Shown here piece after piece: positions 10,756-29,140 of a DNA stretch of 36,230 nt (position 1 is the first letter of the stretch; each line of letters starts with the position of its first letter). Source of the DNA: an uncultured Synergistales bacterium (GTDB lineage Bacteria; Synergistota; Synergistia; Synergistales; Aminobacteriaceae). The stretch covers positions 1-36,230 of the forward strand of contig CAJOMU010000024.1 in NCBI GenBank assembly GCA_905235735.1, given 5' to 3'. The notes under the pieces are model-generated. The model saw only the letters and a program-made list of their open reading frames with translations. It ran no database searches and had not been told where the DNA came from. Position numbers and translations under genes: made by a program.

Positions 10756-11727
10756 TCATTCGTACATGTCTTCAGATAACTCTATGAATTCAACTGTTCC
10801 GTAACTCCCTGCATAATATTTCCTCAATATTTCTTCATCGTTATCTCTAAGAAGTGGGCGAATTAATTTTCTGTCTCTGTTCTCATTGAATGAATATGCT
10901 TGATTCCCTAGTGAACCTTGTCCTGCAATCTGAATATCACATATGCTACATAAGAACATATCTTCATAGACACTGCTCGTCCTGTCAGCTAATACGTAAC
11001 TGCATCTGATATACGGAACGACATCGGACATAACGAAATCGTAACCGTTGGAGAAAACGTAAACCACAGAATTTTCATCAACTGTTTTGTTAAGAACGTA
11101 TTCATAGTATCTTGATGTCAGAACCTTATGACCATACGCGAACGTTTTCACACTCATATCTCCGCGTCTAACATGAAGACCTATGACTTTACGGCCATGT
11201 TTCTTGTCCTGTCTGATTGATGCTTCTATATTTGAGGCTTCAGTGCCAAGAATATCATGCAGACCTGACCAGTTTAGGCATCGTGCAAGTTCTTCAAACT
11301 CGTTTTCTGTTCGTATTAGGTCATCGAGTGTGTACAAATAACTGTACAGAGGAGGCTGTAATTCTTCATATCGTCCCTTGAACTTTTGTTCGATGTTATT
11401 CAAGTGAGTTCCGTAAAGCAAACGATATCTCTTCCGCTGAATCGTAGAGGCCGTTTCAAAATTTAAGCCTGGAAAGCATTTAAATATCAAGAAATCTCTT
11501 GCCTCTTTACCAAGACCATCAATAGGGTTATTATCGTACCAGCTTATGTCATATTTCACTTTGAATCCCCTTACTGCGAACCATTGACCTTTTAGGTATC
11601 TGAATATCTGAGAACAGAATCCTCCGTCAATCCACATGATAACGCACGGGTCTTTCTCGAAGTGCCTTGTTATAAGCCCAACTTTACCTAGCACAATTTT
11701 CACCAGTTGTTTTATCTTTCTAAGCAT
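10756..11727 (-). CDS. GT11-family (alpha-1,2-fucosyltransferase-like) glycosyltransferase
   Basis: This 323-residue cytoplasmic enzyme probably moves fucose from GDP-fucose to a sugar of LPS or another surface glycan. Evidence is the family motif GLHVRRGDMS, with H185-V-R-R-G-D forming the GDP-fucose site, the N-terminal GGFCSQIFRYLKG (family form GGLGNQ-x-F-x-Y), and later segments VYVFSNGYDF, SVYEDMFLCSICD and IAGQGSLGNQAYSF that match the Fuc-T fold order. I start it at ATG 11727, because CAGGAG lies seven bases upstream; an upstream in-frame GTG at 11775 has no ribosome site. It is a single gene between a terminator and a 7-bp repeat tract. The linkage and acceptor are unknown. Confidence 0.82.
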   Translation of the reverse strand: MLRKIKQLVKIVLGKVGLITRHFEKDPCVIMWIDGGFCSQIFRYLKGQWFAVRGFKVKYDISWYDNNPIDGLGKEARDFLIFKCFPGLNFETASTIQRKRYRLLYGTHLNNIEQKFKGRYEELQPPLYSYLYTLDDLIRTENEFEELARCLNWSGLHDILGTEASNIEASIRQDKKHGRKVIGLHVRRGDMSVKTFAYGHKVLTSRYYEYVLNKTVDENSVVYVFSNGYDFVMSDVVPYIRCSYVLADRTSSVYEDMFLCSICDIQIAGQGSLGNQAYSFNENRDRKLIRPLLRDNDEEILRKYYAGSYGTVEFIELSEDMYE

Positions 11728-11827
11728 GACAAAACTCCTGGAGAACAAATGTGTGTTTAAGTTTTTGAGATTCACGGAAAGAGAACGCAGACGAAAGAAA
11801 TTTTGAAAGATTACATAGGCATAATTC

Positions 11828-11953
11828 TACCTGATACCTGATACCTGATACCTGATACCTGATACCTGATACCTGATACCTGATACCTGATACCTGATAC
11901 CTGATACCTGATACCTGATACCTGATGATACCTGATACCTGATACCTGATACC
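11828..11953. repeat. Heptanucleotide tandem repeat (TACCTGA)n, about 17.6 copies
   Basis: The 7-bp unit TACCTGA (GGTATCA-type on the other strand) repeats without error from 11828 to 11925. A three-base GAT insertion at about 11927-11929 follows, then more than three further units to 11953. The tract is non-coding: the fucosyltransferase frame read upstream meets a stop at 11827-11829, and 7 is not a multiple of 3. It begins 101 bases upstream of the fucosyltransferase start and ends about 160 bases before lptA, so it could alter promoter spacing for either gene by slippage. Confidence 0.95.
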
Positions 11954-12025
11954 ATTATGATGCGAAGAATCATTTTGTCAAGCTCCTTTTCATTGATTTA
12001 TTGTTTTTTTTTTTTATTATACAAC

Positions 12026-12055
12026 TTACGGAGCATATTATGTTATTTGTATACT
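12026..12055 (+). promoter_or_regulatory. Possible promoter for the lptA-lptB-fumC-rlmD run
   Basis: TTACGG at 12026-12031 and TATACT at 12050-12055 are 18 bases apart, about 56 bases before the lptA start. A 12-base T run (12004-12015) lies just upstream. The -35 match is modest. Confidence 0.35.
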
Positions 12056-12110: not shown

Positions 12111-13046
12111 ATGACGAAAAAATTTCTTGCCTCTCTTATTCTCATCTTAATATGCATTCATTCACATGCAGCTCATGCACTCGATGAAAGACTTCCTGAT
12201 AAAGCTACCCTCTCAGCTAACAGAATGAGATTCGATGCTCAAACTGGAGACTTCCTCGCTGAAGGTGATGTACGAATCACTGCTGGAGACCTCAACGTTA
12301 ATGCTCCTTTAGGAACCGGAAACATTGACCGAAGAGAAGTAAACTTTGAACGCGGAATAACAGCTAAAGGTAAATGGATGGGCGATAAAGTAGACATTAA
12401 AGCAGGAAGATTGTTACTATCATTCGCAGATATACCAAGCTGTAGATTTCAGAACGGCGTTAAAGGCGGAATAGGTACTATGTATCTTGATGCTGACAGA
12501 CTAACATTAACGGGTATCGGAGGATTCACCACACCATCAGGCAATGACAGGCAGACTAAATTCTGGCTTGTGAACGCAAAAAATCTCGAAGATCGCTCTC
12601 AAGGAATCACATTCGGAGCAGGTTCTGTTGAAGGAAGTCTCAGAGGAGGAGAACTTCATGACATGACAGCGAAAAAAGGTGTGTGGATTAAAGGCAGACC
12701 AAAAACTAATGAAGCTCCCGTTAGCCTCAGAGGAGACAGCGCATTATATTCTGTTGCACGAGGAAGCGTAGTAGTCAGTGGCCATGTAGTTGCAGTTCAG
12801 GGAGGACGAACATTGAAATCTGATTCGATAGTGTATTTTCCAGAACAAAATCGCGTTGAGGCACTCGGAGGATTAACACGTAAAACTAACGGTGAAGCAA
12901 CAACTGAGCGTGCAGAGATTACGATAGACTTATCGCGCGAGAGAAAATCAACACCTACAGTGAAGAGCGATTCAGATTCAACATCGCAGACTGAACAGCC
13001 TAAACCTAAAGCAAAATCAAGAACCAGGAGAACACGCAGCAAATGA
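12111..13046 (+). CDS. lptA: LptA/OstA-like periplasmic LPS transport protein with two OstA regions and a basic tail
   Basis: LptA forms the periplasmic bridge that carries LPS to the outer membrane. The 311-residue precursor has a signal peptide ([20 protein letters not shown], cleavage near AHA). A first OstA-like stretch ([20 protein letters not shown] then GDVRI) and a second one ([20 protein letters not shown]) follow, the latter ending in NRVEALGG. This is longer than the usual LptA of about 180 residues. The C-terminus is a Ser/Thr/Lys/Arg/Pro-rich tail. I use ATG 12111, which gives a proper signal peptide; AAGGAG is 14 bases upstream. ATG 12081 would add ten charged residues before it. 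The stop overlaps the lptB start (ATGA). No lptC gene is seen here. Confidence 0.85.
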
Positions 13047-13775
13047 AAGGACTATCTGCATCTGAAATACGCAAAAGTTATAGCGGCAGACTAGTTGTCG
13101 GAGGAGTAAGCATTAACGTTAATGAAGGTGAAGTTGTCGGTCTTCTTGGCCCTAATGGAGCAGGTAAAACTACATCATTCTATATGATTGTGGGATTGAT
13201 TAAGCCCGATTCAGGTAAAGTTGAAATTGATGACCATGAAATAACTTCTTTGCCTGTTTATGAACGTGCAAGAGCAGGCATAGGTTATCTTCCGCAAGAA
13301 GCATCTGTATTCCGAAATCTTACGGTAAGAGAGAATATTAGTATGGGAGGAAACAGGCAGAAAGAAATTTGCAGATAAACTCACTGATGAATTACTTGAA
13401 CAGTTCAAAATTACACATATCGCTGATACTAAAGGTTATGCACTCTCAGGCGGTGAACGAAGACGCGTTGAGATTGCACGTGCACTCACCATGAAGCCGA
13501 AATTTATACTTCTTGATGAACCTTTCAGCGGAATAGATCCGATTGCAGTTGCGGACATTCAGACGATGATTCATGAACTCAAAGCTCAGGGCTATGGTAT
13601 TCTCATAACAGACCACAATGTACGCGAGACGTTAAGCATAACGGACAGGACATATTTGATTCATGACGGTAAAATCTTTCTTGCCGGTTCACCTGCTGAA
13701 GTTGCGGAAAATGAACTTGCACGTAAATTCTATCTCGGTGAACATTTTGAATGGGAAGGGGCGCATCAGAAATAG
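13043..13775 (+). pseudogene. lptB: LPS export ABC transporter ATP-binding protein, frameshifted as given
   Basis: The N-terminal part (13043-13378) has Walker [13 protein letters not shown] and Q-loop [10 protein letters not shown]. The C-terminal part, one frame over and open to 13775, has [15 protein letters not shown], Walker [14 protein letters not shown] and the switch [10 protein letters not shown]. Together they match LptB along its length. Dropping one G from the run at 13345-13347 joins ENISM directly to [20 protein letters not shown]. The second part has no start codon or ribosome site of its own, so two separate genes are unlikely. LptB is normally essential in LPS-bearing cells, so a sequencing or assembly error is the first explanation; a true mutation or +1 recoding remains possible. 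The end overlaps the fumC start. Confidence 0.88.
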
Positions 13776-19203: not shown

Positions 19204-19533
19204 AATAAAAATTTCCCTTCCTTTCAGGATTATGATTTAAGAAAAAATTGTAAAAATTCTGAGTGATGATAGCAATTATAAATGCGTGATGAGTTTTATT
19301 CAAATACAAAAAATTTTTGAATATATCAATCCATAACTTACTGAATAAAGGTTTACATCGAGAATATTTTATTGAATTGACTATTATTATTAATTTTGGT
19401 AACATTCGGTTATCCAGTATAAGAATTCTATCTATGGCCATAGTTCGGAATACACATAAATTTCTTCGTGTGTTTGCAGTTGTATTATGCTGTAAATGCA
19501 AAAAATATTAACCGTAAAGGAGCGAAATTCTTA
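19204..19533. promoter_or_regulatory. Divergent control region between iolA and the sugar/inositol ABC operon
   Basis: The 330 bases hold no credible gene. They are strongly A+T-rich and must contain both promoters. A perfect 12-bp palindrome CTATGGCCATAG sits at 19432-19443, about 90 bases before the binding-protein start, and is a candidate operator. TATTAT/TATGCT-like -10 elements occur near 19485-19495, without a clear -35. Confidence 0.45.
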
Positions 19534-20499
19534 ATGAAGACTAAGAAACTTTTGGCAGCAGTTTTATCCGTTGTTATGGTGCTTTCACTGGCTGTATGTG
19601 CATCGGCTAAGGATTATAACATTTCAGTCATTCTGAAGACAACAGCGTCGGAATATTGGGGCTATGTTGTTGCTGGTGCTCGTGCATACGGAAAAGATCA
19701 TCCGAATGTACACGTTCAGGTCAAGGGTGCTACATCTGAGACTGCATATGATGAACAGCAGAACATGATCGAGACCGACATGAACAACTCTGACATTGAC
19801 GGTTATGTTATAGCTCCTCTTCAGGCAGACATGGTTGCGAACATGATTTCAGGTCAGAAGAAGCCAATCGTTGCCGTTGATACTGCGATTGAAGCTCCCG
19901 AAGTACTTTCATTTGTAGGAACAGGCAACGAGAGCGCAGGTAAACTTGGCGGAGCAGAGGCGGCTAAACTTGCGAAACAACGCGGATGGGAAAAGATTTA
20001 CTGCATTGAAATCGCAGGAGTTCAGGGAGATTCAACGAATGAAGCACGCATGAGAGGATATGCGGCAGGCGTTGAGTCAGAAGGAGGAACATTCCTGTTC
20101 AACGAGATTCAGTATGCAAATGCTGAGGCAAATCAGGCAGTTGCTTGCATGGAAGCTATCATGCAGAATCACCCGGAAGGTATTGCAATCATCTGCGCAA
20201 ACAATGATGATATGGCTATGGCAGCAGCTCGTGCAGCAGCAGGCAATGAAGCCTACAAGAACACTGTATTTCTTGGCTTTGACGGAATTCAGTCAGCGTG
20301 CAATTCAATTCTTGCAGGCGAGGAAACAATGTCAGTCTGTCAGGAAGGCTATACAATGGGATATAACGCTGTTGATGCAGTTGTACGTGCTCTTCAGGGC
20401 GAGAAACTTCAACCGTTCATTGATGCAGGTGCAAGCGTTGTATCTCCCGCAACAGCACAGGCTCGATTAGATCAGCTGAAGCGTTATCTCAACGACTAA
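19534..20499 (+). CDS. Periplasmic sugar (probably inositol) ABC transporter binding protein
   Basis: A 321-residue member of the ribose/galactose-type periplasmic binding family (Peripla_BP_4). The signal peptide MKTKKLLAAVLSVVMVLSLA ends near ASA. The mature part begins with YNISVILKTTASEYWGYVVA and shows ADMVANMISGQKKPIVAVDT, IICANNDDMAMAAARA and GFDGIQS, typical ligand and hinge regions. ATG 19534 has AAAGGAG upstream and yields the signal peptide; the frame is open further up without a ribosome site. Position in the iol island makes inositol the best guess, but ribose-like sugars are possible. Confidence 0.85.
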   Translation: MKTKKLLAAVLSVVMVLSLAVCASAKDYNISVILKTTASEYWGYVVAGARAYGKDHPNVHVQVKGATSETAYDEQQNMIETDMNNSDIDGYVIAPLQADMVANMISGQKKPIVAVDTAIEAPEVLSFVGTGNESAGKLGGAEAAKLAKQRGWEKIYCIEIAGVQGDSTNEARMRGYAAGVESEGGTFLFNEIQYANAEANQAVACMEAIMQNHPEGIAIICANNDDMAMAAARAAAGNEAYKNTVFLGFDGIQSACNSILAGEETMSVCQEGYTMGYNAVDAVVRALQGEKLQPFIDAGASVVSPATAQARLDQLKRYLND

Positions 20500-20532
20500 G
20501 GGCAAGTATTATCGACAAAATCGAATAAGTTC

Positions 20533-20577
20533 AGGACGGATCCATTTATCTTGTATACCTCTCATGGGATCCGTTCT
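20533..20577 (+). terminator. Hairpin between binding-protein and ATPase genes
   Basis: AGGACGGATCC (20533-20543) and GGATCCGTTCT (20567-20577) form an 11-bp stem with one G-U pair and a 23-base loop. Only a weak T run follows, so it is more likely an RNA-stabilising or partial-termination hairpin than a full terminator. Confidence 0.6.
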
Positions 20578-20624
20578 GTTATATATAGCAGCATAAATTC
20601 ATACATAATCGGAGGTAAGTGGAA

Positions 20625-22127
20625 TTGTCAGAGTATGTAGTGGAACTTAAAAATGCGACTAAACGCTTTCCGGGTGTTGTGGCTCTGAATCATATGCAGC
20701 TTGCCGTAAAACCCGGAGAAATTCTTGGCCTGATTGGAGAAAATGGAGCAGGCAAATCAACGCTCATAAAAGTATTAACCGGTGTCTATCAGCCTGACGA
20801 GGGAGAAATCTACGTAAACGGAGAGAGAAAAGTTTTTCACAATCCCAATGAATCAGCCGCAGCAGGAATAGCTTGTGTGTATCAGGAATTGAATATCGAA
20901 AAACTCCTGAGCGTTACGGATAATATTTTCATCAACAAATGGATTCATAAAGGCATGCTTCTTGATTATCCAGCAATGCACAAGAAGGCTAAGGAAGTTA
21001 TGCTTTCACTCGGCCAGGATATTGACCCAACGAAGGCAGCAGGAACATTCGGAATGGGCATTCAGCAGATGATTGAAATCGCAAAGGCAGTCCTGATTGA
21101 CGCAAAGATGATCATCATGGACGAGCCGACTTCATCACTGGGAGAAAAAGAAGTTGAACAGCTCATGAAGACCTGTAGAGAATTAAAGGCAAGAGGCATA
21201 GGAATTGTCTTTGTCTCGCATAAACTTGAGGAACTCTTCGAATTATGCGACCGCGTTACAGTCATCCGAGACGGAGAATATATTGACACTAGACCTATAG
21301 GCCAATGGACGAATGACTCACTGATAACGGCAATGGTCGGTAGAACTCTTGAGAATCAATTCCCCAAAGAATTCGGCGTAAAAGGTGATTGCTTCCTTAA
21401 AGTTGAAGGCTTAACAGTCGGCGGTGTCCTGAATAACGTCAGCTTTGAGGCATACAGCGGTCAAATCTTGGGCTTATCAGGGCTTGTAGGTGCAGGACGA
21501 ACTGAAACTGTCAGAGCAATTTTCGGGGCAGACCCATTAGACGGAGGAAAAATTTTCGTCAAGGGCAAAGAAGTGAAATTTAAAACTCCCAAGCAGGCAA
21601 TTGATGCAGGGATTGCACTTCTGACTGAAGACCGAAAAGGTTCAGGACTTGTGTTAGCACAAACTATCAGAACTAATCTTATTCTCTCAAGTTTCAAGCA
21701 GCATTCAACGGGAATGTTCCTAGACGAGGAGAAAATTGAGAAGAGCGGACAGGCTCACATTGAGACCCTCAGAATTAAGACACCTTCAATTTATGAGATT
21801 GTCGGACAGCTTTCCGGCGGTAATCAGCAGAAAGTAGTTATCGGAAAATGGCTCAATGCAGAGGCCGAAATTTACATTTTTGATGAACCTACAAGAGGAA
21901 TAGACGTAGGTGCAAAAGTTGAAGTCTATAACGTTATGAATGATCTCGTGAAGAATGGCAAGTGCGTAATTATGATTTCTTCAGAGATGCCGGAAATCTT
22001 GGGCATGAGCGACCGTGTGATAGTAATGCGCGGTGGGTCAGTCATGGCTGAGGTTGACAGGAACAGCAGGCACTTTAATCAGGAAGACTTAATGAAAGCT
22101 GCATGGGGAGGAAGTTTAGATGAATAA
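20625..22127 (+). CDS. Sugar ABC transporter ATP-binding protein, RbsA/MglA type (two ATPase domains)
   Basis: The 500-residue double ATPase energises the importer. The first half has Walker A GLIGENGAGKSTLIK, Q-loop VYQELNIEKLL, IIMDEPTSSLGEKE and switch VSHKLEEL. The second half has the degenerate Walker A GLSGLVGAGRTETVRAIFG usual for this family, then LSGGNQQKVVIGKWL and IYIFDEPTRGIDVGAK. TTG 20625 is the preferred start because GGAGG (20611-20615) is nine bases away; the in-frame GTG at 20619 is only three bases from it. The stop overlaps the permease start by eight bases. Confidence 0.93.
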   Translation: MSEYVVELKNATKRFPGVVALNHMQLAVKPGEILGLIGENGAGKSTLIKVLTGVYQPDEGEIYVNGERKVFHNPNESAAAGIACVYQELNIEKLLSVTDNIFINKWIHKGMLLDYPAMHKKAKEVMLSLGQDIDPTKAAGTFGMGIQQMIEIAKAVLIDAKMIIMDEPTSSLGEKEVEQLMKTCRELKARGIGIVFVSHKLEELFELCDRVTVIRDGEYIDTRPIGQWTNDSLITAMVGRTLENQFPKEFGVKGDCFLKVEGLTVGGVLNNVSFEAYSGQILGLSGLVGAGRTETVRAIFGADPLDGGKIFVKGKEVKFKTPKQAIDAGIALLTEDRKGSGLVLAQTIRTNLILSSFKQHSTGMFLDEEKIEKSGQAHIETLRIKTPSIYEIVGQLSGGNQQKVVIGKWLNAEAEIYIFDEPTRGIDVGAKVEVYNVMNDLVKNGKCVIMISSEMPEILGMSDRVIVMRGGSVMAEVDRNSRHFNQEDLMKAAWGGSLDE

Positions 22128-23115
22128 GAAAATAGGCGGCGGTGTACAGCTTGGTACGGTACTTGCACTCGTGATTATGTGTGCGTTTCTTGCGTTTGCA
22201 AATCGCAATTTCTACAGTCCTGGTAACATCATGGGTATCTTGAAGCAAACGGCGTTCAATGCGTTTCTTGCAACTGGAATGCTGCTTTGCCTCATCACTG
22301 CGGGTATTGATTTAAGCGTCGGTGCTAATGCAATATTCTGCGCGTGTCTAATGGGTTCACTGAAGGAAGCAGGAATTACAAACGGAATTATTCTTATGAT
22401 TGTTGCGGTTCTTGCCGGTGCATTAATGGGATTCATCAATGGAACGTTACTGACGCGTCTTCATCTTCCGCATCCTTTCGTTTCAACTTTGGGAATGAAA
22501 AACGTCTTGTGGGGTGCGGCACTCGTTGTAACAGGAAACAAGATGATAAATAAATTCCCTGAGACAGTTCAGTTTCTGGGCCGTCAGACAATCGGAACAT
22601 TCGGAGGAGGTTTCCCTGTAAGTTTCCTAGTGATAATCATTCTGTATATCATAATGCATATCTTCCTGAGCCGTACTGCTTTGGGACGTTCGATTTATTG
22701 CGCTGGCGGTAATATAGAGGCGGCGAGACTTTCAGGTATCAACACAGCTAATGTCCTTACATTCTGTTACACGATGTCGGGAATCATGGCGGCACTCGGA
22801 GGTATTCTATCAGTTGGACGTTCTGGAATATGCAACGGCTCAATGGCAACACAGCCATATGATACTGATGCTATAGCGGCATGCATAATCGGAGGAGCAT
22901 CATTCACAGGAGGCAAGGGAACAATGATAGGTACAATGATAGGTGCGTTGATCATTGCGGTGCTCAGAAACGGCTTCACACTGTTATCGATTGACTCATC
23001 AGTACAGAATATCGTGCTTGGTCTCGTTATAATCCTTGCTGTATTCATGGACGTTGTTCGTGCAAGCATGGAAGCTAAACGCAGGAGACTTGCTGCTGCG
23101 GCCAAGATGCATTAA
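22120..23115 (+). CDS. Sugar ABC transporter permease, RbsC type
   Basis: This 331-residue inner-membrane protein has 8-10 predicted hydrophobic segments. Family landmarks are GMLLCLITAGIDLSVGANAI, FINGTLLTRLHLPHPFVSTL, the ATPase-docking region SRTALGRSIYCAGGNIEAAR LSG, and IGGASFTGGKGTMIGTMIGA. It follows the ATPase gene with an eight-base overlap and is probably translationally coupled. A hairpin follows before the dehydrogenase gene. The substrate follows the binding protein, probably inositol. Confidence 0.93.
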   Translation: MNKKIGGGVQLGTVLALVIMCAFLAFANRNFYSPGNIMGILKQTAFNAFLATGMLLCLITAGIDLSVGANAIFCACLMGSLKEAGITNGIILMIVAVLAGALMGFINGTLLTRLHLPHPFVSTLGMKNVLWGAALVVTGNKMINKFPETVQFLGRQTIGTFGGGFPVSFLVIIILYIIMHIFLSRTALGRSIYCAGGNIEAARLSGINTANVLTFCYTMSGIMAALGGILSVGRSGICNGSMATQPYDTDAIAACIIGGASFTGGKGTMIGTMIGALIIAVLRNGFTLLSIDSSVQNIVLGLVIILAVFMDVVRASMEAKRRRLAAAAKMH

Positions 23116-23145
23116 TTGATTTTTCTTGAGAAGAGAAACTATTTG

Positions 23146-23172
23146 AGGCTGTCTCTGTTTCTGGGACAGCTT
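23146..23172 (+). terminator. Hairpin between transporter and iolG-like gene
   Basis: AGGCTGTCTC (23146-23155) pairs with GGGACAGCTT (23163-23172) with two G-U pairs and a seven-base loop. The following T-rich stretch is broken (TTCATTTCT), so termination would be partial; the next ribosome site follows directly. Confidence 0.55.
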
Positions 23173-23197
23173 CATTTCTAAAGGAGGAATTTATTCT

Positions 23198-24211
23198 GTG
23201 AAAAAACTTCAAATAGGAATAGCTGGTTTAGGTCGTCTTGGGAAGGTTCATGCTAAGAATATAGCCAGCAAAATCTCAAATGCTGAACTTGTTGCCGCAT
23301 GTTCAATTGTGCCTGAAGAACTCGAATTCGCAAAAACTGAACTCGGAGTGAATAACACATACTCTGATTTCAGTGAAATGCTGAAGAATGATGATATTGA
23401 TGCTGTATGTATCGTTACAACTTCAACTGAACATTGCCGTCAGATTGAGGCCGCTCTCGATGCAGGAAAGCATGTGTTCTCTGAAAAGCCTCTCGGAACA
23501 GATGTAGCTCAGTGCAAACGTGCAGAAGCCGCAGTAGAACGACACCCTGAATTGAAATTCATGCTTGGATTCATGAGACGTTACGACAAATCATATGCCT
23601 ATGCCAAAAAACTGGTAGATGAAGGTAAAATCGGAACTCCTTATCTCGTGAAAGCTACAGGAATTGATCCAGAGTCAGCAGTGCAGGGAGCGATACGTTT
23701 TGCGAAGACATCAGGAGGAATATTCCTCGACATGGCCATTCATGATATTGATTTATGCCGCTGGTTTCTTAACAGTGAGGCGATTGAAGTTTACGCAATG
23801 GGTTCAACCTTCAAGCATAAAGAATTCAAAGACGCAGGTGATGATGAAACAGGCGTTGCAGTCTACAAGTTTGCAAATGGCGCAATGGGAATGATTCATG
23901 TTGGACGCACTGCACCTTATGGCTATCATGTTGAGACTGAAGTTGTAGGTACTGAAGGCACAATCAGAATCTCAGCAGTCCCAGAGAAAAATCTCGCAAC
24001 TGTCTACGGAACAAACGGCGTATGCACGGAATGTGTCGGGTCTTTCCCTGAACGTTTTGCTGAAGCATATCTCGCCGAAATGGAAGAGTTCGTTGATTGT
24101 GTCATCCATGACAAGAAGCCCGGCGTTAATGTCTATGACGGAACGAAATCTACTGCCATAGGTTACGCTACTACGGAAGCATGGAAGACAGGAAAGATAA
24201 TAAGGATTTAG
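23198..24211 (+). CDS. iolG: Gfo/Idh/MocA-family oxidoreductase, probable inositol 2-dehydrogenase (first copy)
   Basis: The 337-residue NAD(P)-dependent dehydrogenase starts with the Rossmann motif GIAGLGRLGKVHAKNI. It carries the family EKPLG signature (FSEKPLG), the catalytic-region stretch FLDMAIHDIDLCRWFL (Lys of EKP, Asp and His of HDID), and FMRRYDKSYAYAKKLVDEGK. It should oxidise myo-inositol to 2-keto-myo-inositol or act on an isomer such as scyllo-inositol. The start is GTG, with AAAGGAGG 10 bases upstream. A second, related gene closes the operon (28121), so the two may divide isomers or directions. Confidence 0.85.
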   Translation: MKKLQIGIAGLGRLGKVHAKNIASKISNAELVAACSIVPEELEFAKTELGVNNTYSDFSEMLKNDDIDAVCIVTTSTEHCRQIEAALDAGKHVFSEKPLGTDVAQCKRAEAAVERHPELKFMLGFMRRYDKSYAYAKKLVDEGKIGTPYLVKATGIDPESAVQGAIRFAKTSGGIFLDMAIHDIDLCRWFLNSEAIEVYAMGSTFKHKEFKDAGDDETGVAVYKFANGAMGMIHVGRTAPYGYHVETEVVGTEGTIRISAVPEKNLATVYGTNGVCTECVGSFPERFAEAYLAEMEEFVDCVIHDKKPGVNVYDGTKSTAIGYATTEAWKTGKIIRI

Positions 24212-24215
24212 TGTT

Positions 24216-24461
24216 ATGTTATTTGATTCTGATAAACGATTCAGTATCGTATGGACACTCGCAGGAGGTTACTTACTGTATCTTGGGGATGATCTGCTCA
24301 CACTCTGGTATCGTGGTGAGACTGATTACCCGTTGATTGCGATTCTGACAGGTATATTATTTGTCGGAACAGGAGGAGTGCTGTTGTTCATGGCATGGAA
24401 GAAATGGCACAATCAGAAAGAACAGGAAGAACAAAAAGAACAAAAGGAGAATGAGAATTAA
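24216..24461 (+). CDS. Small two-helix membrane protein within the iol operon, function unknown
   Basis: The 81-residue protein has two hydrophobic stretches (about 10-25, IVWTLAGGYLLYLGD, and 38-60, LIAILTGILFVGTGGVLLFM). A highly charged tail of KEQ/EEQ/KEN repeats comes from short direct repeats in the DNA (about 24418-24455). It follows the dehydrogenase stop by four bases, and its stop shares one base with the iolE start, so it is expressed with the pathway. AGGA lies about 10 bases before the ATG. I do not recognise the family. Confidence 0.7.
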   Translation: MLFDSDKRFSIVWTLAGGYLLYLGDDLLTLWYRGETDYPLIAILTGILFVGTGGVLLFMAWKKWHNQKEQEEQKEQKENEN

Positions 24462-25360
24462 TGTTTGATTCTAACAAGGTGTATCTCGGAATTGCACCCA
24501 TAGGCTGGTGTAATGATGATATGCCTGAACTTGGTTCGGAAAATACATTCCGTCAAATCATAAGCGAAATGGCTCTTGCTGGTTTCACTGGCTGTGAGAT
24601 AGGCAATAAATATCCCTCAGACCCAGTTGAACTTAAACGTGAGTTAGACCTTCGGGGAATGAGAATAGCATCAAGGTGGTTTTCATCGTTCATTCTCACT
24701 CAGCCGATAGAAAAAGTTGAAGCTGATTTCACGAGAGAACTTGAATTTTTGGCGGCAGTAGGAGCAAATCGAATTAACGTTTCGGAACAAAGTTATTCGA
24801 TTCAAGGGAAGGTTGATGTTCCTGTGCTTGGAGATAAAAAGCACATCATGAATGATTCAGAATGGGAAAGATTTTGTGACGGTCTGAATCGTCTGGGGAA
24901 AATCGCTGCATCAAAAGGCTTCAAGCTCTGCTATCATCATCATATGGGTACAGTTGTTCAGACAGCCGCAGAGACAGATAGAATGCTGGCTAACACGAAT
25001 AAAGATTACGTTCATCTTTGCTATGATACAGGACATTTCACTTTTGCAGGGGAAGACCCTTTGACCGTTCTGAAGAAATACGTATCGAGAGTCGGCCATG
25101 TTCATCTAAAGGACATGAGAGCAGATGTAGTTTCACGTGTGAAACCTGAAGGCTGGAGTTTCCTTAAAGCAGTTCGTGAAGGGGCATTCACTGTTCCTGG
25201 TGACGGATGTGTTGATTTCGATCCAATCTTCAAATTGCTTAGTGATGCACATTATGAGGGCTGGCTTCTTGTTGAGGCAGAACAAGACCCCGCAAAGGCA
25301 AATCCTCTTGAATATGCAATCAAAGCACGCAAATATATTCGTGAGCATACGAAACTTTAA
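24461..25360 (+). CDS. iolE: Inosose dehydratase
   Basis: IolE removes water from 2-keto-myo-inositol to give 3D-(3,5/4)-trihydroxycyclohexane-1,2-dione. The 299 residues form a sugar-isomerase-like TIM barrel with the typical start LGIAPIGWCNDDMPELG. Metal-site candidates are in CEIGNKYP, LCYHHHMGT, HLCYDTGHFTFAG and GHVHLKDMR, and VPGDGCVDFDPIF matches the family. The start overlaps the stop of the small membrane protein (TAATG), with AAAGGAG upstream. Confidence 0.93.
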   Translation: MFDSNKVYLGIAPIGWCNDDMPELGSENTFRQIISEMALAGFTGCEIGNKYPSDPVELKRELDLRGMRIASRWFSSFILTQPIEKVEADFTRELEFLAAVGANRINVSEQSYSIQGKVDVPVLGDKKHIMNDSEWERFCDGLNRLGKIAASKGFKLCYHHHMGTVVQTAAETDRMLANTNKDYVHLCYDTGHFTFAGEDPLTVLKKYVSRVGHVHLKDMRADVVSRVKPEGWSFLKAVREGAFTVPGDGCVDFDPIFKLLSDAHYEGWLLVEAEQDPAKANPLEYAIKARKYIREHTKL

Positions 25361-25371
25361 GGAGAATTATC

Positions 25372-26172
25372 ATGTACATTCAGAAACAAGTTGTTCGGGG
25401 ATATAATGCCTATCTGACCATGAATGAGAATGACTGCGCAACTAATATGGATATTGGGCTTTTAGTTCTTGAAGAAGGAGACGAATATACTTTTTGTGAA
25501 TCTGAGAAGGAACTGGCTCTTGATTTATTAATCGGAGATGTTAGTTTCTCATATAACGGTGAAACTCATTCAGCTTCACGCCCTGACACTTTCCATTATG
25601 CGGCATATTGTCTTCATGTCTGCAAAGGAACGAATGTAAGCGTGAAGGCACTCAATCACGCGGAGCTTTATGTTCAGAAGACGGATAACGAACGCACATT
25701 CCCTGCGAGGCTTTATGCTCCTGATGACATAATGGTACAACATGCAGGTTCAAACGGTGAACTTATGGGATGTATGCAACGCGAGATTCAGACGTTCTTC
25801 GATTATGAATCAGCACCTTACAGCAACATGGTACTCGGAGAAGTTCTGAACTATCCGGGAAAATGGTCGAGCTATCCGCCGCATCATCACCCACAGCCTG
25901 AAGTATATTTCTATCGTTTCGATTATCCTCAGGGATTTGGTGCGGGCTTCGCTAACGGACAAATCTACAAGACCGGACATAACGGCTGTCTTGTGATAAA
26001 TCATTCATTCCATTCACAGGGAGCAGCTCCCGGATATGCAATGTGCTACATGTGGGGAATCAGGCATCTTCCTGGAAATGCATGGAGAAAAACACGAATC
26101 GATGACCCAGAACATTCATGGCTTTGGAAGGAAGATGCGAACGATCATATATTCAAACCAAAGGAGGGTTAA
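25372..26172 (+). CDS. iolB: 5-deoxy-glucuronate isomerase
   Basis: IolB isomerises 5-deoxy-D-glucuronate to 5-dehydro-2-deoxy-D-gluconate, the IolC substrate. The 266-residue double-cupin protein has the metal-binding set YPPHHHPQPEVYFYRF (His171-173, Glu177) and NHSFHSQGAAPGYAMCYMWG further on. AAGGAG lies eight bases before the ATG and 11 bases separate it from iolE. The overall length fits the family. Confidence 0.93.
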   Translation: MYIQKQVVRGYNAYLTMNENDCATNMDIGLLVLEEGDEYTFCESEKELALDLLIGDVSFSYNGETHSASRPDTFHYAAYCLHVCKGTNVSVKALNHAELYVQKTDNERTFPARLYAPDDIMVQHAGSNGELMGCMQREIQTFFDYESAPYSNMVLGEVLNYPGKWSSYPPHHHPQPEVYFYRFDYPQGFGAGFANGQIYKTGHNGCLVINHSFHSQGAAPGYAMCYMWGIRHLPGNAWRKTRIDDPEHSWLWKEDANDHIFKPKEG

Positions 26173-26175
26173 TTT

Positions 26176-28104
26176 ATGGAGACAATAAAATTAAGCATGG
26201 CTCAGGCTCTGGTTAGATTCCTTGAGAATCAATACGTTGCTTATGATGACATTGAACAGCCTTTCGTCAGAGGAATATTCATGCTTCCGGGACACGGAAA
26301 CGTCGTAGGGCTTGGTCAGGCATTGCTTCAGGAGGCACATCGTCTTGAAGTCTATCAGGGTAAGAACGAACAGGGGCAGGCACACGTTGCAGTAGCGTTT
26401 GCAAAACACATGAAACGCAAGCAGATAATGGCTGTAACTTCTTCAGTTGGGCCGGGAGCAGCAAACATGATAACTGCCGCAGCAACAGCAACAGCAAATA
26501 ATATTCCAGTTCTGATTATGCCCGGAGATGTCTACGCTTGCAGACAGCCAGACCCAGTTTTACAGCAGATTGAACAGCCCAATGACCTTTCTATCTCCAC
26601 GAATGACGCTTATCGTGCCGTTTGCCGTTACTGGGATCGCATAGTCCGTCCTGAACAGCTCATGAGTGCGATGATGAGTGCATTCAGAGTTCTCACTGAT
26701 CCGGCAGACACAGGAGCAGTATGCATAGCATTGCCGCAGGACGTTGAAGGTGAGGCATATGATTATCCTGTTTCATTCTTCGCAAAAAGAGTGTGGAGGA
26801 TTGAACGCAGACCAGCAACGGATATAGCAATAGAGCAGGCGGTCAAGGCAATACGTGCAAGCAAGAAGCCGATGTTGATATGCGGAGGCGGAGTTCGTTA
26901 CTCTGAAGCTCATGAAGCATTCAGGAAGTTTGCGGAGAAATATCAAATTCCATTTGGTGAAACTCAGGCAGGAAAGAGCGCATTATCATGGGAACATTCA
27001 TTGAACTTGGGAGGTCTGGGAGTTACAGGTTGTTCTGCGGCAAATGACATTGCACGTGAAGCTGATTTGATTATCGGTGTCGGCACAAGATACACTGACT
27101 TCACGACATCATCAAAGTGGCTCTTCAAAGACAATGCACAGTTCGTGAATATCAATGTCTCAGAGTTTCAATCATTCAAGCTCAATGCCATTCCCGTTAT
27201 TGCTGATGCAAGAGACGCTCTCGAAAAACTTTCCGCAGCACTCGAAGGATACAAGACCAGCTACAACGGAGAAATAGAAGCAGCAATCGAGAAATGGAAT
27301 AGGGAATATAACAGACTGGCCGCAATAAAATTCGGAGATGATTACGTCCCAGAGGTCAATGATGCAAACGCAGTGTCAGCTTTCAAATATGCTAAGGACG
27401 TTAATTCATGTCTTCCTCAAACTACAGTTCTTGCCGCAGTGAATAAACTCATTGAACCTGATGACAGCGTTATAGGTGCGTCCGGCTCATTGCCAGGAGA
27501 CATGCAAAGAATGTGGCGCGCTAAATGTCCTGATACATACAACATGGAATACGGATATTCATGCATGGGCTATGAAGTATCGGGAGCTTTGGGTGTCAAA
27601 TTTGCTGTCGGAGATGAACACGAGGTCTATGCAATGGTTGGAGACGGCGCTTTCATCATGCTTCATTCCGAACTGCTTACGGCTGTACAGGAACACAAAA
27701 AGATTAACATCGTGTTGTTCGATAATGCTTCATTCGGTTGCATAAATAATCTTCAGACTGCGCAGGGCAATGCGTCTTTGTGCACTGAACTTCGATTCAG
27801 AAATCCAGAAACAGGAAAACATGACGGAGCTTTCATTTCGGTTGACTTCGCAGGAATAGCACGAGCATACGGAGCAAAAGCATACACCATACGGACGCTT
27901 GATGAACTCGAAAAGGCAATTGCTGAGGCCAAGACATTGAAGAATATCCCTGTGCTGTTCGACATAAAAGTTATGCCCAAATCAATGACCGAAGGCTATG
28001 GTGCATGGTGGCGTGTAGGTTCAGTTGAAGTCGGAGGAACTGAAGCAAATCGTGCGGCATGGGAAAATCATTTGAAGCATGAACGTGATGCAAGAAAATA
28101 TTAG
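26176..28104 (+). CDS. iolD: 3D-(3,5/4)-trihydroxycyclohexane-1,2-dione hydrolase (ThDP-dependent)
   Basis: IolD opens the inositol-derived ring by hydrolysis to 5-deoxy-glucuronate. The 642-residue enzyme is of the acetolactate-synthase fold. Key sites are the ThDP-activating Glu65 in GKNEQGQAHVA, SSVGPGAANMITAAATATAN, the central cofactor-like domain (ADLIIGVGTRYTDF), and the ThDP/Mg motif GDG at 489-491 ending in LFDN (VGDGAFIML). Length and order fit IolD and exceed acetolactate synthase. AAAGGAGG lies before the start, three bases after iolB. Confidence 0.94.
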   Translation: METIKLSMAQALVRFLENQYVAYDDIEQPFVRGIFMLPGHGNVVGLGQALLQEAHRLEVYQGKNEQGQAHVAVAFAKHMKRKQIMAVTSSVGPGAANMITAAATATANNIPVLIMPGDVYACRQPDPVLQQIEQPNDLSISTNDAYRAVCRYWDRIVRPEQLMSAMMSAFRVLTDPADTGAVCIALPQDVEGEAYDYPVSFFAKRVWRIERRPATDIAIEQAVKAIRASKKPMLICGGGVRYSEAHEAFRKFAEKYQIPFGETQAGKSALSWEHSLNLGGLGVTGCSAANDIAREADLIIGVGTRYTDFTTSSKWLFKDNAQFVNINVSEFQSFKLNAIPVIADARDALEKLSAALEGYKTSYNGEIEAAIEKWNREYNRLAAIKFGDDYVPEVNDANAVSAFKYAKDVNSCLPQTTVLAAVNKLIEPDDSVIGASGSLPGDMQRMWRAKCPDTYNMEYGYSCMGYEVSGALGVKFAVGDEHEVYAMVGDGAFIMLHSELLTAVQEHKKINIVLFDNASFGCINNLQTAQGNASLCTELRFRNPETGKHDGAFISVDFAGIARAYGAKAYTIRTLDELEKAIAEAKTLKNIPVLFDIKVMPKSMTEGYGAWWRVGSVEVGGTEANRAAWENHLKHERDARKY

Positions 28105-28120
28105 TTAAGGAGATAAATTT

Positions 28121-29140
28121 ATGAGCATCGACAAAAAACTTAGAATCGGAATAATTGGTGCAGGACGTATAGGCAAACTGCATGCTAATAACTTGGCCTA
28201 CAGAGTGCCAGGTGCGGAACTTGCGGCGATTTCAGATGTCTATGAACCTGCCGCAAAAGAACTGTCGGAGAAACTTGGTGTGCCATTCTACACTGATGAT
28301 TATCACAAAGTCCTGAATGATCCTTCAATTGATGCAGTGTTCATTTGTTCATCAACTGATACGCATTCACCAATTTCGATTGAGGCAGCAAAAGCAGGCA
28401 AACATATTTTCTGCGAGAAGCCAATAGATCATGATTTGGACAAAATCCGCAAAGTCCTCGAAGAAGTTAAAAAGGCTGGAGTGAAATATCAGGTTGGATT
28501 CAACAGACGCTTCGATAAAAACTTCAAGCATGTTCACGATGTCGTTCAATCAGGCGGTATCGGTGATGTCCATATCGTAAAGGTTACGAGCCGCGACCCT
28601 GAAGCTCCACCTTTGAGCTACGTGAAAGTTTCCGGCGGAATTTTCGTTGATATGACGATTCATGATTTCGATATGGTTCGTTATCTCTCAGGTTCAGAAG
28701 TTGAAGAGGTAAGTGCATTCGGTGCTTGTCTCGTTAATCCTGAAATAGGTCAGGCTGGAGACGTTGACACATGCATAATCACTCTCAAATTCGCAAACGG
28801 TGCACTCGGTGTTATCGATAACAGCAGGCAGGCAGTCTACGGATATGATCAGCGCATTGAAGTATTCGGTTCAAAGGGATGCATTACAGCAGACAATGAG
28901 ACACCGAACAATACGACTCTCTACACGAAGGAAGCCGTAACGAAAGAAAAACCGCTTTGGTTCTTCCTTGAGAGATACAACGATGCTTTCAATGCTGAAG
29001 AATGTGCGTTTGTTGATTCGTGTCTGAATGACAAGGACACCGTAGTGGGAGCTTTCGACGGATTACAGCCCGTTCTTATCGCGATTGCCGCAAAGGAATC
29101 ATGCGAGAAGGGCGGAGTTCCAGTGAAAGTAATGAAGTAA
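28121..29140 (+). CDS. iolG: Inositol 2-dehydrogenase (Gfo/Idh/MocA family, second copy)
   Basis: The 339 residues start with the NAD-binding GIIGAGRIGKLHANNLAYRV. They carry FCEKPIDHD (catalytic Lys), QVGFNRRFDKNFKHV, and FVDMTIHDFDMVRYLSGSEV with the catalytic Asp/His pair. The pattern with RIGK and GFNRRFD is closer to classical Bacillus-type IolG than the first copy at 23198. It would oxidise myo-inositol to the inosose used by IolE. AAGGAG precedes the ATG. It ends the operon and is followed by a good terminator. Confidence 0.9.
   Translation: MSIDKKLRIGIIGAGRIGKLHANNLAYRVPGAELAAISDVYEPAAKELSEKLGVPFYTDDYHKVLNDPSIDAVFICSSTDTHSPISIEAAKAGKHIFCEKPIDHDLDKIRKVLEEVKKAGVKYQVGFNRRFDKNFKHVHDVVQSGGIGDVHIVKVTSRDPEAPPLSYVKVSGGIFVDMTIHDFDMVRYLSGSEVEEVSAFGACLVNPEIGQAGDVDTCIITLKFANGALGVIDNSRQAVYGYDQRIEVFGSKGCITADNETPNNTTLYTKEAVTKEKPLWFFLERYNDAFNAEECAFVDSCLNDKDTVVGAFDGLQPVLIAIAAKESCEKGGVPVKVMK

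Follow-up and report, generated by a model that had tools for sequence, protein, structure and literature searches.

A heptanucleotide repeat tract lies between a fucosyltransferase-like gene (glycosyltransferase family 11, GT11) and lptA in the window, the whole stretch of 36,230 nucleotides from an uncultured Synergistales bacterium that was analysed here. The question is whether this tract acts as a phase-variation switch and, if so, which gene it would control and by what means. Slippage switches are best known from a few host-adapted pathogens. Our literature search found no account of such switches in Synergistetes, although this does not prove that none exists. The original prediction held that the fucosyltransferase is phase variable through slippage, with the tract acting by promoter distance. 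The first part is retained here on the basis of open frames, an SD with an ATG, and sister loci; the promoter-distance mode is not. We consider it likely that a standard phase-variation cassette has its hypermutable part in this tract and would switch GT11 by frame-dependent translational coupling.

The repeat tract and its reading frame

Tandem Repeats Finder reports the consensus TACCTGA at 11828-11953 with period 7, 17.6 copies, 95% matches and a score of 225, by far the top-scoring array of the window (the runner-up scores 98). This agrees with the predicted unit number of about 17.6, and the letters show the one GAT insertion (approximately 11924-11929), a single addition of 3 bases that is frame-neutral. 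No three-unit match to the tract was found elsewhere in the 2.1-Mb genome. The distances originally given from the tract to GT11 and to lptA are about right, since the respective start codons are at 11727 (minus strand) and 12081 (plus strand). The features of the locus are as follows.

12016-12021, minus strand: P1, upstream -10 element TATAAT of the leader ORF (from sequence; putative promoter)
11983-11990, minus strand: ribosome-binding site of the leader ORF, AAAAGGAG (from sequence; SD-like also at sister cassettes)
11976-11981, minus strand: -35 element TTGACA of the nested promoter P2, between SD and ATG (promoter-motif match)
11971-11973, minus strand: start codon ATG of the leader ORF, MILRIIMVSGIRYQV... 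(from sequence and ATG placement at sister cassettes)
11954-11959, minus strand: -10 element CATAAT of P2, abutting the tract start (promoter-motif match and tRNA-operon promoters)
11828-11953, minus strand: tandem tract, sense unit TATCAGG (TACCTGA on the plus strand; Tandem Repeats Finder and sequence)
11827-11973, minus strand: leader ORF as assembled, 48 codons, with TAG directly 3' of the tract, predicted OFF (frame reading)
11735-11739, minus strand: ribosome-binding site AGGAG of GT11 itself (from sequence)
11720-11722, minus strand: alternative-frame leader stop TAG overlapping the GT11 start, ATGCTTAG, predicted ON (frames and sister loci)
10756-11727, minus strand: GT11 (fucosyltransferase-like) gene, 323 aa, with HVRRGD motif, the proposed controlled gene (Pfam PF01531)

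The GT11 gene scores 30.3 bits with PF01531 against a gathering score of 23.9 as cut-off, and HVRRGD represents the HxRRxD motif of the family. A search of the genome contigs found no relatives of the gene, and a sequence search gave no useful solved structure for it.

The tract had been described as non-coding. This is contradicted by the minus-strand ORF MILRIIMVSGIRYQV..., which runs from the ATG at 11973 through the entire tract. On this strand the tract is without stops in all three frames; the plus strand does have stops. A 7-base, non-triplet unit thus appears to lie in a translated region behind an SD and the ATG at 11973.

The best promoter-like site of the region is P2, TTGACA-N16-CATAAT, with 11 of 12 matches and a 16-nt spacer. 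The TATAAT of P1 is found 34 nt upstream of it. As the tract is 3' of both promoter-like elements, its length leaves the -35/-10 spacing unaltered. This is of direct relevance to the idea that unit number tunes GT11 or lptA through promoter distance, as in hmw1A/hmw2A. There, too, heptamers stand about 100 bp in front of a surface gene (PMC2651432), which speaks for the idea. However, the tract here is coding and 3' of both elements, and the conserved block upstream of lptA belongs to lptA itself. We therefore regard promoter-distance tuning as very unlikely.

A conserved cassette across the genus

Using the two-unit query TATCAGGTATCAGG, we searched 43 genomes of the genus and obtained matches in seven species. 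The element TTGACA-N16-(CATAAT or TAAAAT)-GG precedes the tract at all seven matched loci with upstream sequence. A query with the promoter only, and no repeat, showed that this element also stands before different repeats; one such copy, the second in the genome of the window, is followed by (CAAGT)n. A sequence-only model of the cassette (45 positions, built from 11 copies) gave well over 100 matches in the genus. Approximately 90 of these were read, and the tract could be parsed in 74.

Before these 74 tracts the order is TATAAT, AAAGGAGC, TTGACA, ATG and CATAAT. Of the 74 cassettes, 68 have a TATAAT (at most one mismatch) 15-44 nt ahead of TTGACA, 52 with an extended TGn; an SD-like ribosome-binding site is present in 64, and an ATG 7-15 nt past the start of TTGACA in 60. 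At most parsed loci the tract starts 0-1 nt 3' of the -10 element, which is not the arrangement of nadA/porA-type promoter spacing. The model itself includes TTGACA and its matches are therefore biased towards this element, but among 27 loci picked by the tract alone (TATCAGG twice or GACAC four times) 25 also have an exact TTGACA 22-40 nt upstream. At one exception, L298, TTGACA is altered whereas a strong AGGAGG and the ATG are kept. This suggests that the translation start is what is essential in the cassette.

Unit length is 5 at 41 loci, 7 at 29 and 8 at 4, and in no parsed tract a multiple of 3. All 24 distinct units are stop-free on the sense strand, against 16 of 24 on the opposite strand; shuffling gives a mean of 19.8 stop-free units (P=0.003 for the sense strand).

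The model also matches three tRNA-operon promoters in this genome, in which TTGACA-N16/17-TATAAT is therefore a regular type of housekeeping promoter. An order-wide scan of 151 genomes gave matches in 23, of which 22 belong to the genus. The lone match outside it shows no repeat, and the cassette was rejected as a feature of other genera in the scan. A heptamer element shared across phyla was likewise rejected: among the matches listed, the TATCAGG loci that were read carry the cassette only at the locus of this genus. TATCAGG arrays as such do occur, cassette-free, in many unrelated phyla among the matches listed (Bacteroidota, Gemmatimonadota, Betaproteobacteria and others; L098-L216). Near-identical slippage switches before dozens of surface-carbohydrate genes in one genus of Synergistales would apparently constitute an undescribed family.

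Past the tract, TTGTC is found at 17 of 65 loci where 2.2 are expected. At many loci (among them L304, L328 and L260) a conserved T-rich YTATTGTC or TATGCTC is seen in the first 25 nt or so 3' of the tract, and its codon frame is not kept. Pairing of the ribosome-binding site RNA with the post-tract YTATTGTC was considered and dropped, as it showed no excess over controls.

Genes and frames behind the tract

Sufficient downstream sequence for assessing the gene frame was available at 65 loci. The gene frame is open back into the tract at 43 of these, and the remaining 22 have their own downstream start codon. At L269, L274, L279, L291, L342 and L347 the first 150-300 nt past the tract contain no start codon (ATG, GTG or TTG) in frame, and the proteins could therefore hardly be started except upstream of the tract. 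As assembled, about one third of the open-frame loci are in frame (15 of 43, counted from the listing), which fits a random phase. P2 as the sole promoter is unlikely: fusion-type genes would then be without any start codon.

These frames are also informative about a second explanation, in which P2 drives the gene from a transcription start within the repeats. Unit number would then alter how long or how stable the untranslated leader is, and output would be graded, not on/off. P2 is near-consensus, conserved and similar to tRNA-operon promoters, 22 of 65 loci have a separate downstream start codon, and at several loci a strong intrinsic terminator stands between tract and gene, all of which would suit such a leader. 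Yet 43 of 65 loci require translation through the tract, and an untranslated leader needs neither 24 of 24 stop-free units nor the absence of lengths divisible by 3. We consider leader tuning unlikely.

The downstream targets appear to be mostly surface-glycan enzymes. Pfam assignments for the 65 genes include Acyl_transf_3 (11), methyltransferases including FkbM (4), polysaccharide pyruvyl transferase (4), several glycosyltransferase families, Stealth (2) and DUF4422 (2). Nine cassettes were found in this genome: the window locus on contig C24, C5:90612, C23:22464, C5:154328, C8:47015, C16:23671, C20:3111, C17:22964 and C8:56796. Behind them we identified three class I-like methyltransferases, one FkbM methyltransferase, a GT61 and the GT11. 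In another genome (G016:C25, locus L056) the FkbM-type gene behind the tract is apparently broken by an internal frame change.

Coupling frames at leader-type loci

At 11 of 21 leader-type loci one of the frames leaving the tract stops at the start codon of the gene (-6 to +8 nt). Dinucleotide shuffles of the leader give 3.1 of 21, for a P of about 3e-6 that is optimistic because the -6 to +8 range was set after viewing the data and L052, L053 and L056 are related. Locus L337 of this genome has the same coupled arrangement (stop at +112, ATG at +108) and was left out of the count as the automatic choice of start differed. No coupled frame is present at leader-type loci L257, L259, L266, L305 and L325. 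At several leader-type loci an intrinsic-terminator-like hairpin lies between tract and gene, and only the coupled frame would be translated across it.

In the window the leader would stop at -99 (as assembled), -83 or +8, counted from the GT11 ATG, depending on which of the three frames leaves the tract, and the last position is reached by +1 or -2 units. One phase thus places the leader stop no more than about 10 nt from where GT11 starts. The chance of a coupled frame at this locus alone is about 25%. As assembled the locus is predicted to be OFF, and a change of +1 or -2 units would turn it ON; read from the sequence, copy-number states thus predict different expression states of GT11. A fusion of leader and GT11 was also considered and is excluded: no frame of the window joins the two because TAG at 11827-11829 lies in the GT11 frame.

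In genome G052 the GT11 orthologue (70% identity) has the same cassette upstream and is fused in frame through two units. Since the window locus is leader-type, both forms interconvert in evolution. The same comparison could be read as decay, with the tract a neutral microsatellite left from a former switch and the locus unresponsive, as TAG blocks fusion and the start of GT11 is independent. That the G052 gene is fused to its tract while no frame of the window fuses is in line with this. A long, near-perfect tract of 17.6 units is nevertheless unlike decay, and the coupled frame fits the pattern of other leader-type loci. Decay is in our view quite improbable, and a coupled switch remains the preferred reading.

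Copy number differs between species, with 17.6 units at the GT11 locus of the window against approximately 2 in G052, and 3.3, 3.3 and 8.3 units at an FkbM locus across species. The contig ends at the tract in 9 of 80 fetched cassettes, as is expected of long or heterogeneous repeats. Two contigs of G045 (the ends of C1 and C95; L054 and L040) end in the same heptamer tract and probably represent one locus broken by the assembler. At L346, another cassette of the window's genome (G000:C17:22964-22999), a (GAACCAC)n tract before an FkbM-type methyltransferase contains a run of 12 N, perhaps an assembly gap.

lptA and neighbouring genes

lptA starts at ATG 12081 on the plus strand and is divergent from GT11. 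Similarity of its upstream region to other species begins at 12043, past the cassette. The same block is found in G012, where the neighbour of lptA in place of GT11 is a gene that we take, from its translation, to be ahcY-like. GT11 and its cassette are, on this comparison, a lineage-specific neighbour of lptA. Because lptA has its own conserved upstream block from 12043 and the opposite orientation, it is probably not under control of the tract, and the proposed tuning of LPS export finds no support.

Further along the plus strand, lptB (the LPS-export ATPase, expected to be essential; 13043-13775) is split by a frame-breaking deletion at approximately 13340 in comparison with the intact gene of G041, which is either a real mutation or an assembly error. 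At 19468-29140 (plus strand) a sugar ABC transporter is followed by iolB-/iolG-like, TPP enzyme and TIM-barrel genes, an apparent cluster for inositol use.

Proposed mechanism

Phase variation of the fucosyltransferase by slippage is well supported. Sister loci read through the tract or couple the gene start to the tract frame. The following scheme builds on the observed cassette, frames, genus-wide pattern and coupling enrichment. RNA polymerase would start at P1 (12016-12021, minus strand), and ribosomes, initiating at the ATG at 11973, would translate across the repeats. Slippage in living cells would add or remove 7-base units, each of which moves the exit frame by 1. Two of the frames would terminate the leader early, 99 or 83 bases short of the GT11 start. 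The remaining frame would extend it to 8 bases beyond the A of the GT11 ATG, and the ribosome would then finish on the GT11 start site. In this coupled frame the ribosome would keep the leader RNA covered, and GT11 would be made by translational coupling; at most sister loci the leader would be the N-terminus of the gene itself. We infer that uncoupled GT11 is off and not just reduced, and likewise how large the effect would be; GT11 has a separate ribosome-binding site and ATG, and may therefore be expressed whatever the phase.

The coupling scheme assigns no role to P2. Tentatively, the cassette could be a purpose-built slippage module, in which P2, a second promoter of housekeeping strength, is retained between the ribosome-binding site and the repeats because its DNA opening falls on the first repeat units and raises the slippage rate or ties slippage to growth; we see this as possible rather than probable. 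If true, the genus would be reusing a transcription-driven mutator element with interchangeable repeats, and this would explain the conserved TTGACA-N16-CATAAT and its distance of 0-1 nt to the tract although the P2 RNA has no start codon. A conserved promoter exactly at the repeat in any case poses a testable question.

Summarizing, an uncultured genus of Synergistales, one member of which comes from a red-deer sample, appears to bear a standardised switch in up to a dozen or more copies per genome. The cassette provides a searchable signature for the complete set of switchable genes. The switch suggests that phages or the host exert strong pressure on the surface of these bacteria. Frame-controlled translational coupling would be an added route by which slippage acts on an intact downstream gene.

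Relation to known systems

The closest parallel is found in the coding-repeat contingency loci of H. influenzae, with tetranucleotides in LPS genes, a pentanucleotide in hsdM, and coding pentamer and heptamer switches (PMC2651432). In both cases non-triplet repeats lie in ORFs of surface-modifying or modification genes, and a change of units shifts the frame. Differences are that one promoter-SD-ATG cassette is reused here with 24 interchangeable units, that a second, nested promoter abuts the tract, and that about one third of the loci would act on a separate downstream gene.

In hmw1A/hmw2A the tracts (approximately 13-38 heptamers) are part of the promoter region, about 100 bp ahead of the gene, and adjust the transcript level (PMC2651432). 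Unit length and distance to a surface gene are alike; the window tract, unlike the non-coding hmw tracts, appears to be translated and is 3' of the promoters. In NadA-type phase variation of Neisseria (PMC2791445) the repeat changes the spacing of promoter/operator elements. There too the tract adjoins a promoter, whereas in the window it comes after the -10 element.

Finally, a stop no more than 10 nt from the next start is accepted as indicating translational coupling (PMC3711429). The window shares with overlapping genes an upstream ORF whose stop lies within 10 nt of the downstream start. What differs is that this ORF is a short leader bearing the repeat; its frame, and hence its coupling, could switch.
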